From positions 1,426,001 to 1,490,000 of the forward strand of contig NZ_JAANOU010000001.1 in assembly GCF_011758765.1 (NCBI RefSeq): a stretch of DNA of 64,000 bases, in the 5' to 3' direction. The notes under the pieces were generated by a model. That model saw only the letters and a program-made list of their open reading frames with translations, searched no databases and had not been told where the DNA came from. The stretch is from Amycolatopsis viridis (lineage in GTDB: Bacteria > Actinomycetota > Actinomycetes > Mycobacteriales > Pseudonocardiaceae). The position numbers were made by a program, and so were the translations under genes. This document shows positions 15,341 to 18,483 of this stretch, one piece after another; within the stretch, counting starts at the first letter, position 1; every line of letters starts with the position of its first letter.

Positions 15341-16267
15341 TCAGCTGTTCTCGATCTGCTGGACGATCGTTTTGGCGTCGTTGCTGGGGATGGCGAACCC
15401 GATGCCGACCGATCCGGCGGAGGTGGGCGAGGGGCTGTAGAGGGCCGAGTTGATGCCGATGACCTCGCCGTTCGTGTCGACGAGCGGGCCGCCCGAGTTG
15501 CCTTGGTTGATGGGTGCGTCGGTTTGGATGGCGGTGTAGCTGGGGCTGTCGCCGGTGCGGTGCGCGGTCTGTCCGAACGGGCTGTTCTGTTCGCCGCTGG
15601 AGATGTCGGAGAGCTGCCGGCCGAGGGCGCTGACGATGCCGGAGGTGACTGTGTTCTGCAGGCCGCCGGGGGAGCCGATGGCGACGACCGGCTCGCCGAC
15701 CTGCAGTTTGCTGGAGTCGCCGAGTTGGGCGGGGGTGAGTCCGCTGGCGCCCTTGGCCTGCAGGAGGGCGATGTCGGCTTTGGTGTCGGCGCCGAGCACG
15801 GCGGCCCGGTACTTGGTGCCGTCGGACAGCGTGATGGTGACGTCACCCTCGGCGCCGGACACGACGTGGGCGTTGGTGAGGATCTTGCCGTCGGCGGTGA
15901 GGATCACCCCGGAACCGATGGCTTCGCCGTCGCCGGTGGTGACGTTGACCTGGACGACGCTGGGCAGCACCTTCGCGGCGACCGCGCTGACGTCGGTGTT
16001 GGTGGTGCTGGAGATGGTGGTCGCGGCGGACGGCGTGAGCGCGCTGGTCGACGTCGCGTGGTCGAGGCCCACGATGGCAGCTCCGACGGCGCCGCCGACG
16101 ACGGCCGCGGTGAGTGTGCCGGCGGTGACGAGGACGGCGAGGCGCTTCTTCTTCGGCCGCGGGGGCGTGAGCACCGGTGCGGCCGCGACCGGCTGCTGGT
16201 GGTGGGGGTGGCCGTGGGCCGGCGGGTTCCCGCCGGCCTGGCTCGCCGGGAACTGGTTCTCGTTCAT
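15341..16267 (-). CDS. Membrane-anchored HtrA/DegP-like trypsin-fold serine protease without PDZ domain
   Basis: The 308-residue protein has a Pro/His-rich cytosolic N-terminus ending in PKKKR and one transmembrane helix at about residues 43-65. An S1C protease domain follows with the complete triad: His in ILTNAHVV, Asp in KADIALLQ and Ser in NQGNSGGPL. The chain ends at NDAKTIVQQIENS, where HtrA proteins normally continue into a PDZ domain, so it is a short form. It should act outside the membrane on misfolded proteins or a specific target. The ATG at 16267 has CGAGG close upstream; a stronger AAGGAGG is too distant. An unrelated erm gene lies upstream. Confidence 0.9.
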   Translation of the reverse strand: MNENQFPASQAGGNPPAHGHPHHQQPVAAAPVLTPPRPKKKRLAVLVTAGTLTAAVVGGAVGAAIVGLDHATSTSALTPSAATTISSTTNTDVSAVAAKVLPSVVQVNVTTGDGEAIGSGVILTADGKILTNAHVVSGAEGDVTITLSDGTKYRAAVLGADTKADIALLQAKGASGLTPAQLGDSSKLQVGEPVVAIGSPGGLQNTVTSGIVSALGRQLSDISSGEQNSPFGQTAHRTGDSPSYTAIQTDAPINQGNSGGPLVDTNGEVIGINSALYSPSPTSAGSVGIGFAIPSNDAKTIVQQIENS

Positions 16268-16347
16268 GTCCTCGAGGTTGGTCGGCCTCCTTGTGAGAAT
16301 GCTGTGGAAGGACCTGGAAATCCGCTGAGAAGAATTTCCTGAGAGCG

Positions 16348-17127
16348 TCAGGTCCGGAGCCTCCGGGGGAGGGCGGGCCAAGTCCGTCCGGGGGACAGGT
16401 CGCGGGCGAGCTGGGCCCACTGGTGGGGTGGGACGGTCGCCGTCGGCTGGGACGGCCGGATTCCGGCCCGGCGCAGTGCGTGGCGGTCGAACAGCGTCCG
16501 TGCCGGTGTGGCGGGTTGCCGGTAGGCGGTGGACAAAATCGTCCACAGTGCTTCTTCCGCCGACCGGGGGAAGTGGTTCCGGCGGATCGACAGGTGTGCG
16601 GAGTCGATGCGCGGTGGCGGCGAGAAGTGGTGGGCACCGACGCGGGACACCAGGTGGAGGTCGAAGCGTGCGGCCCACCACGCCTGTTCCGCGTGCCGTG
16701 GCACGGTGGCGCAGATCCGTTTCGCGAAGCCCCACTCGACGAGCATTTCCGCGCGGTGGAGTGCGGTCCGCGGTGTGAGCAGGCGGCGCAGGAGAGTGGT
16801 TGACAGCGCGTACGGAATGTTCGCCACGACCAGGAACCGTCGCCGGGGCAAGGGGATCTGCCTGGCATCGGCGTGCACGACGCGCACATTGGGCTGGTCT
16901 CGGAACCGGGCGGTCAGCCGGCGCGCGAACCGGTCGTCTCGTTCGACGGCGAGGATGCGCGCTCCGGTGGTGGCGAGGTGGCGGGTGAGGGCGCCTTGTC
17001 CGGCGCCGATCTCGAGGACGAGATCGTCACGGCCGATGGCGCAGGACTGGACGAGATGTGCGGCGATCGCTGGTGTGGCGAGGAAATGCACACCGGCCGA
17101 CCGCCCGGCACCAGGTGCCGAGGGCAT
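16348..17127 (-). CDS. Erm-type 23S rRNA (adenine-N6) methyltransferase
   Basis: The 259-residue protein has the KsgA/Erm layout: FLATPAIAAHLV at the N-terminus, SAM motif I LEIGAGQGALTRHL near residue 38, acidic motif VERDD, VVHADARQI, the catalytic NIPY, and FSPPPRIDSAHLSIRR. Erm enzymes methylate A2058 of 23S rRNA and give macrolide-lincosamide-streptogramin B resistance; a housekeeping KsgA would be longer and differ in context. The ATG at 17127 has GTGGAG five bases upstream. The 5' region encodes a 17-residue leader and overlapping inverted repeats, so translational attenuation is likely. Resistance itself is inferred, not shown. Confidence 0.88.
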   Translation of the reverse strand: MPSAPGAGRSAGVHFLATPAIAAHLVQSCAIGRDDLVLEIGAGQGALTRHLATTGARILAVERDDRFARRLTARFRDQPNVRVVHADARQIPLPRRRFLVVANIPYALSTTLLRRLLTPRTALHRAEMLVEWGFAKRICATVPRHAEQAWWAARFDLHLVSRVGAHHFSPPPRIDSAHLSIRRNHFPRSAEEALWTILSTAYRQPATPARTLFDRHALRRAGIRPSQPTATVPPHQWAQLARDLSPGRTWPALPRRLRT

Positions 17128-17138
17128 GGGTACTCCAC

Positions 17139-17216
17139 GTCATGAGAGCGGGCAGGGGGCTCATGACGCAGCGACTGGCGCGAAGCGCTGTCGTGCAGGA
17201 GGCAGCCGCTGCGTCA
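17139..17216 (-). promoter_or_regulatory. Overlapping inverted repeats between leader ORF and erm (putative attenuator)
   Basis: Two perfect inverted repeats lie in the 86 bases between the leader stop and the erm start. One has 10-bp arms (TGACGCAGCG) at 17164-17173 and 17207-17216, the latter covering the leader stop codon. The other has 8-bp arms (GTCATGAG) at 17139-17146 and 17160-17167, ending just before the erm ribosome-binding site. They share 17164-17167, so the two helices exclude each other. This is the arrangement expected of a ribosome-controlled switch, although which helix is the off state is not clear. Confidence 0.6.
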
Positions 17217-17267
17217 GCCTCGCCGCAGGCGGGCGAACACGACGCAGGAGCGGGACAACGTACCCAT
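17214..17267 (-). CDS. Putative erm leader peptide (17 residues, RLR stalling motif)
   Basis: The short frame reads MGTLSRSCVVFARLRRG and stops 86 bases before the erm start. The Arg-Leu-Arg near its end is the +x+ motif at which macrolide-bound ribosomes stall in ErmDL-type leaders. It has no ribosome-binding site, but TAGTCT lies six bases before the ATG, a spacing that fits a leaderless transcript beginning at the start codon, as known for ermE. The stop codon is embedded in one arm of the downstream inverted repeats. Translation is inferred; the peptide is too short to judge by composition. Confidence 0.6.
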   Translation of the reverse strand: MGTLSRSCVVFARLRRG

Positions 17268-17363
17268 GGGCTCAGACTACCGGCGCCGCCAAGTGGTTTT
17301 CCGGAATTGTCGGTGGGCCCCGCTACCGTCGTCCCATCGTCCTCGAGCCGAAGGAGAACAACG

Positions 17364-18347
17364 ATGACGAACACTGTGCCGACAGCCGTGACGAGCGCTG
17401 CACGGCGCACTGTGGAGATCCCGGTGCCGGGGCCGTTCGACCTCGCCGCTGCGGCCCGATTCCTGGAGGGGTTCACGCCCGCGGCGCGACCGGATGCGGC
17501 GGAAGAGCCGGGCACGCTCCGGTTCGCGTTCCCGCTGCCCGGCAGCTGGGTCCCGTGCGCGGCGCGGGTACGGCAGCGGTCACCGGGAGTGGTGGAAGTG
17601 TCCGTGCCGGCGGGCGAATCGGGTCTCGCGAAAGCCGCTGACTTCACGGAGGTGGCGCGTCAGGTGGCGCGCATCCTCTCGCTGGACGTGGACGGTTCCG
17701 GCTTCGGCTCGGTCGGTGAGCGTGACCCCGTCGTGGGTGCGTTGCAGAAGCGGTATCCGGGTCTGCGGCCCGTGCTGTTCACGTCGCCGTACGAGGCTGC
17801 CTGCTGGGCGATCATCGGGCAGCGGATCCGGTTCGGGCAGGCCGCGCTGTTCAAGCAGCGTCTCGCCGAAACGCACGGTACGCGGCTGAACGTCGACGGC
17901 CGTCCATTGTGGTCCTTTCCCGCGCCCGCCGAGTTGCTGGCGATGCCGGCGCCGCCGTGGTTGCCGGAGATCAAAGTGGACCGTTTGCGCGCGGTGGCCG
18001 AGGCAGCTCTCGCTGGGCTCCTCGATCCCGTGACGTTGCGCGCCGCCGAACCCGAAGACGCGCTGGAGGCGTTGCGCGGGCTGCCCGGAATCGGGGCGTT
18101 TTCGGCGCAGCTGATCCTGATCCGCGGCGCCGGCCACCCGGACGTCTTTCCGCGGGACGAGCGTTACCTGCTCGAGGAGATGCGGCGGGCTTACGACCGT
18201 CCTGGTGCTTCCGTCGCGGAGTTGGTCACCGTCGCCGACGCGTGGCGCCCCTACCGCAGTTGGGTCGCCCTCCTGTTCCGCGTGAGCCGCAGTCACCGCA
18301 CCGCGCCGAAGGGAGGTGACTCGCGCAGCCAGGTGCAGGCCGCCTGA
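17364..18347 (+). CDS. DNA-3-methyladenine glycosylase II (AlkA-like, HhH-GPD)
   Basis: The 327-residue protein has a central helical HhH-GPD fold. SPYEAACWAIIGQRI begins the fold, and LRGLPGIGAFSAQLILIRGAGHPDVFP is the helix-hairpin-helix with the catalytic Asp (PDVFP). The N-terminal third is an AlkA-N-like beta domain. It excises alkylated bases in base-excision repair. The open frame runs back to 17058, but the ATG at 17364 with AAGGAGA upstream gives the natural start. It is divergent from the erm leader, sharing a short intergenic region. The C-terminal tail after SHRTAP is low-complexity and probably not part of the fold. Confidence 0.9.
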   Translation: MTNTVPTAVTSAARRTVEIPVPGPFDLAAAARFLEGFTPAARPDAAEEPGTLRFAFPLPGSWVPCAARVRQRSPGVVEVSVPAGESGLAKAADFTEVARQVARILSLDVDGSGFGSVGERDPVVGALQKRYPGLRPVLFTSPYEAACWAIIGQRIRFGQAALFKQRLAETHGTRLNVDGRPLWSFPAPAELLAMPAPPWLPEIKVDRLRAVAEAALAGLLDPVTLRAAEPEDALEALRGLPGIGAFSAQLILIRGAGHPDVFPRDERYLLEEMRRAYDRPGASVAELVTVADAWRPYRSWVALLFRVSRSHRTAPKGGDSRSQVQAA

Positions 18348-18483
18348 GGCGCGACGATCTGTGCTGTCCACGGCGACCGCTGATCGGTCGTGCGCGGCCG
18401 GCTCACCCCGTGCTGATGGCGCGCTCCGCGCCGAGGGCTGATCCTGGGGGCGGTTGGTGCGGCTGGCGGTTGGTCCGACGGAG

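Follow-up and report, generated by a model that had tools for sequence, protein, structure and literature searches.

The window analysed here is a 64,000-nucleotide stretch of Amycolatopsis viridis DNA, in which an erm-type gene for a 23S rRNA adenine-N6-methyltransferase is preceded by a short leader ORF, promoter elements and two inverted repeats, all on the reverse strand (Table 1). The encoded protein scored 176 bits with the broad Erm model of NCBIfam, under the curated cut-off of 212, and 119 bits with the KsgA model; KsgA itself is encoded separately in the same genome (242 bits vs a cut-off of 171). Its closest solved relatives were Erm(38) first, then 6nvm (an rRNA adenine N-6-methyltransferase) and ErmC'. 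The comparison suggests an Erm-type gene, for which methylation of A2058 and macrolide resistance are only predicted. The short intergenic region holding the erm leader is shared with a divergent gene (17364-18347, plus strand), which is DNA-3-methyladenine glycosylase-like (57.8 bits, under the cut-off of 229).

Table 1 Features of the erm leader region in the window
Feature	Position	Strand	Remarks
erm-type 23S rRNA adenine-N6-methyltransferase gene	16348..17127	-	259 aa; ATG at 17127
erm Shine-Dalgarno (SD) GGAG	17133..17136	-	Predicted from sequence
IR2 3' arm (segment 4)	17139..17146	-	Two bases before erm GGAG
IR2 5' arm	17160..17167	-	GTCA (17167-17164) common with IR1 3' arm
IR1 3' arm (segment 3)	17164..17177	-	
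IR1 5' arm (segment 2)	17203..17216	-	Contains leader stop codon
Leader ORF MGTLSRSCVVFARLRRG, predicted leaderless start	17214..17267	-	ATG 17267, stop 17216-17214, 17 codons
Arg13-Leu14-Arg15 codons, putative +X+ macrolide arrest motif	17223..17231	-	Register from PMC8298421
Leader segment pairing with erm SD and start in ribosome-free window fold	17238..17267	-	Minimum-energy fold
-10 box TAGTCT (TANNNT)	17274..17279	-	Ends six bases before leader ATG
Conserved promoter block GAAAACCACTTGG	17289..17301	-	Fits GAAAWY-N2-4-TKGM only with a 4-nt gap and a 6-bp spacer

The preliminary description of this DNA had reported a 17-residue frame with RLR upstream of erm, a TANNNT element at a distance of six bases from its ATG, and a pair of inverted repeats with four bases in common, one over the leader stop and the other beside the erm ribosome-binding site; all of these elements were found in the window, the common bases being GTCA. 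Repeat 1 (IR1) pairs TGACGCAGCG with CGCTGCGTCA (17216-17207 with 17173-17164), perfectly over 10 bp and over 14 bp counting wobble, and repeat 2 (IR2) pairs GTCATGAG with CTCATGAC (17167-17160 with 17146-17139). Since IR2 ends two bases before GGAG, any effect of it on erm would have to be steric or exerted via wobble pairs with GUGG. The leader RNA of the window had a folding energy of -84.8 kcal/mol, below all 200 shuffles (z -3.61), and an Rfam scan of 16000-18400 returned 0 matches at E<=5. The predicted transcript start, placed by the TANNNT box, coincides with the leader ATG, because a spacing of 6 or 7 nt from the box would put transcription initiation at the start codon; the transcript start given in a passage of PMC7157823 lies 7-8 bp downstream of the -10 element.

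Conservation was strongest within the genus. An Erm match at E<=1e-30 was obtained in 14 of 19 Amycolatopsis genomes, and 12 of these 14 loci (12 of the 19 genomes) had both CTCATGACGTGGAG before the gene and a leaderless leader; the other two, L015 (G008) and L016 (G002), had neither, and both of their Erm matches were partial. CATGAGC and CTCATGACGTGGAGT were invariant across the 12 leaders, the 3' arm of IR2 included. Examples of the leaders are MGTLSQSCTVFARLRRA, MGTLCRHCVMCARPRRA and MGTLLESCVVCARLRPRLT, and one of them, MGTLCQPCFAARRPWARAV, is without a strict R-x-R. When eight genus leaders were compared, codons 11-16 showed 2 extra amino acids vs 4 extra synonymous codons, and codons 2-10 showed 13 vs 4. 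The few amino-acid changes at codons 11-16, together with the varied codons of R-x-R, make it appear that the peptide end is kept. The pN/pS over the whole leader frame of eight genus members was 0.98, which counts against the attenuator proposed below. Both sides had changed in only 3 of 28 pairs of the genus alignment, and this scarcity of covariation is due to the invariance of the IR2 pairs inside the genus.

Apparent decay or truncation of erm recurs in Amycolatopsis (L126, L127, L130 and L072, in G013, G014, G008 and G002, respectively) and takes the form of internal loss with an intact leader, of general decay, or of a partial match without leader. G013, which has no Erm match at E<=1e-30, retains an intact leader next to an erm from which internal parts are missing, and in G014, where erm is decayed, the hairpin survives only as a weak remnant. 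A leader ORF was not detected in G014, G008 or G002, all of which have truncated or decayed erm matches, and G005, G010 and G011 gave neither a leader match nor an Erm match at E<=1e-30.

In the Pseudonocardiaceae (family f1), to which Amycolatopsis belongs, 76 of 390 genomes had an Erm match at E<=1e-25, and in a sample of the class an Erm match was found in 35 of 394 genomes, the genome of the window included. The set examined comprised 105 loci, namely the 76 of the family and 29 from the class sample, which had 34 matches apart from that of the window's own genome; L016, being the same gene as L072, was dropped before this count, and the named loci L080-L086 were left out of the counts as repeats of searched genomes. 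A leaderless uORF, defined by a TANNNT 5-8 nt before an ATG or GTG and a length of 5-35 codons, was present upstream of erm at 87 of the 105 loci and absent from 18, and it occurred in 72 of 2100 Markov-shuffled regions and in none of the 278 window tiles or the 105 opposite strands. A uORF of this kind ending in R-x-R, i.e., the predicted macrolide arrest motif before erm that is expected of a translational attenuator, was found at 80 of the 105 loci (60 of 76 in the family, 20 of 29 elsewhere), as against 6 of 2100, 0 of 278 and 0 of 105 in the same three controls. Among these 80, the spacing from TANNNT to the start was 6 or 7 nt in 76 and 8 nt in 4. Seven leaderless uORFs were without R-x-R (L012, L017, L018, L045, L108, L111, L113). 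L057, where MGRTSLMRLRR is present at a different spacing, is missed by the rule.

Modelling covered 83 leaders, 63 of them from Pseudonocardiaceae, with the exclusion of L037, which has no start codon, and of L108, L111 and L113. R-x-R was present in 79 of the 83, with X being Leu in 46, Pro in 23, Ile in 5, Thr in 2, Asp in 2 and Arg in 1, and in 74 of these 79 its distance from the stop was 2, 4 or 5 residues. Its codons vary, with five in use for Leu and four for Arg. In four Pseudonocardiaceae leaders (L012, L017, L018, L045) the motif is replaced by RPW, and these leaders may differ from the rest in the macrolides that they sense.

The leader is tied to some erm subfamilies rather than to all actinobacterial erm genes, as judged from its presence and absence across 17 scanned loci of low identity, all 17 of which scored higher with an Erm model than with that of KsgA. 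It is present in six Erm46/38/55-like loci (L073, L075-L079); by the uORF rule no leader was found at three Erm37/41-like loci (L074, L107, L111), at L058, or at seven loci of the ErmE/H/O/R group (L108-L110, L112-L115). The same rule yielded no leaderless R-x-R leader at several loci of other genera (L039-L041, L044, L046, L059 and L060). In six of the eight genomes of genus g22 (L062-L065, L067, L070) the Erm match crosses one to three stop codons, which represent either decay or the ends of a shorter protein, and the leader and hairpins are retained. A model built from the 12 genus leaders matched 22 of the 390 family genomes under strict filters. Four matches fell off the family erm loci. 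Two of them adjoin an erm that is damaged, in one case by internal loss and in the other by decay, and the other two were weak and without erm; no second leader-regulated gene was thus seen. A search for related loci in a collection of genome contigs returned no relative.

A second leader architecture was seen in the leaders of a second family, f22 (L087-L106), of which 14 of 20 contain W-R-x-R and 19 of 20 end in TA. No stem at the stop codon beyond shuffles was found among those listed (z -1.4 to 0.7), and these 20 leaders, in which R-x-R is kept, showed no switch at the stop between stalling and termination in the folding model described below (5 up, 9 down).

To describe the family hairpins uniformly, the erm-proximal helix, which is formed by the intergenic RNA with the SD region and corresponds to IR2 in the window, is here called 3:4. 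Among the Pseudonocardiaceae leaders, contact of the IR1 stem with the leader stop codon was seen in 54 of 63; the stem is at least 9 bp long in 62, and its mean energy was -24.0 kcal/mol vs -17.1 in shuffled intergenic regions. The arms differ by clade and yet pair, TGACAGCGATGGCC with GGCTGTCGCTGTC and TGAGGCGCGCGACCC with GGGTCGTTGTCGCCTCA being two examples. In a partner-swap test, in which helix arms were exchanged between sequence clusters with no alignment fitted, native IR1 averaged -24.0 kcal/mol vs -18.2 for the chimeras and native 3:4 averaged -19.4 vs -16.3, and in 61 of 63 leaders each helix was more stable than the average of its swaps. By cluster, which is the fairer count because one cluster contains 34 leaders, the result was 14 of 15 for IR1 and 14 of 15 for 3:4. 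An overlap of 3 nt or more between the 3' arm of IR1 and 3:4 was present in 55 of 63 leaders vs 506 of 1260 shuffled ones (mean overlap 7.75 vs 2.54 nt), so that IR1 and 3:4 tend toward mutual exclusion. Mutually exclusive helices, one of them at the erm SD, were therefore found, and in the genus this helix abuts GGAG without covering it. Engagement of the SD bases in 3:4 was not above that of shuffles (3.12 vs 3.46 nt), and 3:4 taken alone was weak against mononucleotide shuffles (mean z -0.76, with 15 of 83 below -2).

A ribosome was then modelled on the leader by masking all RNA up to its edge (P+12) and folding the rest, a ribosome whose P site holds the X of R-x-R being taken as stalled. 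In the family, mean IR1/3:4 pairing was 9.9/8.9 bp in the stalled state and 1.8/13.6 bp in the terminating state, and in ribosome-free RNA it was 4.7/11.0 bp. The gain of 3:4 from stall to termination was +4.75 bp, compared with 0.36-0.86 in ten shuffled sets; it rose in 51 and fell in 2 of 63 leaders, and in the genus it rose in 11 and fell in 0 of 12. These means indicate that 3:4, the helix at erm, is favoured in free RNA and at termination, and IR1 when a ribosome is stalled. In the window itself, IR1/3:4 went from 13.6/0.3 bp stalled to 0.02/9.7 bp terminating. It is to be noted that the window flips between edges of +12 and +15, its stalled state at +15 being already that of IR2 (IR1/IR2 0.1/10.9 bp), and that the family exchange was 51 up and 2 down at +12, 47 and 4 at +15, and 30 and 9 at +18. 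The preliminary description had left the pairing logic unsettled, on the ground that a ribosome stalled at RLRR would free the helix nearest erm; the reverse is probable, since a ribosome holding Leu in its P site would extend only as far as the leader stop, leaving IR1 formed and repeat 2 blocked, a result that for the window depends on the assumed footprint.

Helix exchange was the clearer measure and was adopted after the measures of openness, all of which are reported here. Openness of the four SD bases changed little in the family (0.254 stalled vs 0.214 terminating; 27 up, 18 down of 63) and in the genus (0.323 vs 0.336; 4 up, 7 down of 12). For the 16-nt erm start region, openness in the family went up in 40 and down in 9, with an effect of 0.079 vs 0.0004 (sd 0.0066) in shuffles; by cluster it was 8 up and 3 down of 15, in the genus 3 up and 6 down, and the window alone was not beyond its own shuffles. 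Two read-outs based on the erm start were rejected. Under the first mask (edge +12) openness was 0.350 with a stall, 0.290 at the stop, 0.309 in free RNA and 0.352 with an early ribosome (codon 4), and the stall exceeded the early ribosome in only 38 of 83 leaders; with all upstream RNA masked there was a family signal and none in the genus.

On this comparative and modelling evidence, we consider it probable that the leader and its hairpins constitute a macrolide-sensing translational attenuator of erm. Sequence comparison shows an R-x-R only a few codons ahead of the end of the leader, a leader stop codon within the 5' arm of IR1, and an overlap of the 3' arm of IR1 with 3:4, whose end adjoins or covers the erm SD. 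Without drug, ribosomes would reach the leader stop and melt IR1, allowing 3:4 to form and leaving erm poorly translated; RNA free of ribosomes would likewise be mostly in 3:4 across the family. A macrolide-bound ribosome, in turn, would arrest once its P site is occupied by the X of R-x-R, with its leading edge at about the leader stop codon, in which case IR1 would remain, 3:4 would be excluded and erm would be translated, until methylated ribosomes ceased to stall. As the fate of IR1 differs with the position of the ribosome, the RNA would in effect compare stalling with termination only a few codons apart. The preliminary description had regarded the RLR leader with its mutually exclusive hairpins as probably a macrolide-inducible switch; comparison supports that view, the frame and the repeats being kept in orthologues.

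The closest competitor, for which we see a modest chance, is a four-segment order, as is known from ermC, in which free RNA is held OFF by 1:2 (the Arg codons with the 5' arm of IR1) plus 3:4, and a stalled ribosome covers segment 1 so that 2:3, i.e., IR1, forms. It overlaps the attenuator preferred above and differs from it only in the ribosome-free state, and the two are not exclusive. The family means of free RNA, in which 3:4 exceeds IR1, are in its favour, as is the swap test of the last leader codons with the 5' arm of IR1, in which native 1:2 beat the mean swap in 44 of 63 leaders; this is, however, poorer support than that for 2:3 or 3:4, and the free RNA of the window also retains IR1 (14.2 bp). 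A long-range switch, in which the 5' part of the leader (AUGGGU, CUCCUGCGUCGUG) forms a helix with the SD and start codon of erm as the OFF state, any ribosome on the leader breaks this pairing and IR2 belongs to the ON state, appears unlikely. Such pairing is indeed the minimum-energy fold of the window, with 15.3 leader:SD pairs in free RNA, and openness of the erm start in the window rose from 0.12 free to 0.40 stalled. However, it was not conserved, for in no more than 38 of 63 leaders was the native pairing of leader and SD region more stable than the average of the swaps, and 44% of the swaps were at least as stable; nor could it distinguish a stalled from a translating ribosome. The long-range helix was therefore rejected as a conserved OFF state, despite being the best fold of the window.

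The promoter bears on a reading that we regard as improbable, namely that control is transcriptional only, by a WblC/WhiB7-like activator, with the leader RNA being no drug sensor. GAAAWY-N2-4-TKGM, which resembles the published WblC site plus -35 (PMC7157823, in the section on that site), was found in 25 of 83 promoters vs 1 of 4150 shuffles, and the same paper reports that WblC raises the mRNA of an Erm(O)-type gene. Nevertheless, 21 of the 25 promoters had a 3-nt gap and a 7-bp spacer to TANNNT, not one of 16-19 bp, and in the window the WblC/WhiB7 layout (GAAAWY, 3 bp, -35, 16-19 bp, TANNNT) was not found, its spacer being 6 bp despite the site and a TTG. Control of this kind would also leave the conserved R-x-R end, the stop codon in the hairpin and the overlapping helices unexplained. 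GAAAWY-N3-TTGC looks like a WblC/WhiB7 site plus -35 but stands about one helical turn too near TANNNT; the short spacing may reflect either a compressed promoter or another regulator. The f22 promoter of L089 has an 18-bp spacer between its WblC-like site with -35 and TANNNT, and a sigma-70 scan of the region found nothing. Finally, transcription attenuation of the ermK or ABC-F type is very improbable here, for although two mutually exclusive hairpins precede a resistance gene, a terminator scan found 0 terminator-like sites in 17000-17450 and IR2 leads directly into the SD without a U run.

A broader reading, on which we are evenly divided, would see leaderless +X+ leaders as a class of long standing that is spread across the lineage. 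They would govern most window-type erm genes of Pseudonocardiaceae and would occur, as leaders alone, in the second family (f22); in the Pseudonocardiaceae the stop codon would lie in the switch helix, and the mRNA would read, to within two to five codons, whether its last ribosome is stalling or terminating. A leaderless start would make the sensor independent of an SD, and RLR, RPR and RPW would tune which macrolides are sensed. Soil actinomycetes are the makers of many macrolides, and if this reading is true, R-x-R arrest leaders would be common among them, beyond the few known erm genes. Nature would have provided, in these leaders, a set of arrest peptides (RLR, RPR, RIR, RTR, RPW) at set distances from one hairpin, by which the principles behind macrolide arrest, and behind the sensing of stalling as opposed to termination, become directly testable, and leaderless leaders that sense drugs would also suit the study of leaderless mRNA translation.

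A macrolide-arrest leader before erm is already known as a kind. In ermC the last helix lies over the erm SD, and in both ermC and ermB the stall occurs well inside the leader. These translational attenuators are like the one proposed here in having a uORF and hairpins that switch on macrolide stalling (PMC11264731), and differ from the window-type leaders in their arrest peptides. The survey in that paper reports, in the portion bearing on this, uORFs in many erm genes with no universal pattern of conservation across families, and a term search of its main text retrieved neither 'leaderless' nor 'RLR'. The uORF attenuators of Streptomyces wblC and ABC-F genes are similarly actinobacterial sensors of ribosome drugs (PMC12421871, PMC7157823), but as described in the relevant sections they act mainly by transcription attenuation with terminator and antiterminator, and those sections hold no RXR leader before erm. 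Mycobacterial leaderless mRNAs share the start codon at +1 and the short uORFs (PMC4633059), while the attenuator candidates presented in that part of the paper are cysteine-rich and no drug sensors.

A further likeness is to ErmDL, the leader of ermD, which is likewise a short leader before erm and has the Arg-Leu-Arg arrest motif and the refolding of downstream RNA that are predicted here (PMC8298421). In the experiments of that paper relevant here, the arrested ribosome had Leu7 in its P site and Arg8 in its A site; arrest by telithromycin was relieved when Trp stood in the A site, and arrest by erythromycin needed no intact motif. Some relatives of the window leader also have RLR at residues 6-8, e.g., MSASIRLRRR of L048. 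The window leader, in contrast, is predicted to be leaderless and has RLR at residues 13-15; the RXR of the modelled leaders is placed close to the stop, with RPR in 23 of 79, and most Pseudonocardiaceae leaders (54 of 63) carry the stop codon inside the switch hairpin. A literature search of open-access titles and abstract openings retrieved no description of such leaders, which is weak evidence of novelty. As far as seen, the new elements are thus the leaderless start, the R-x-R near the stop, the stop codon in the switch helix and the family-wide spread.
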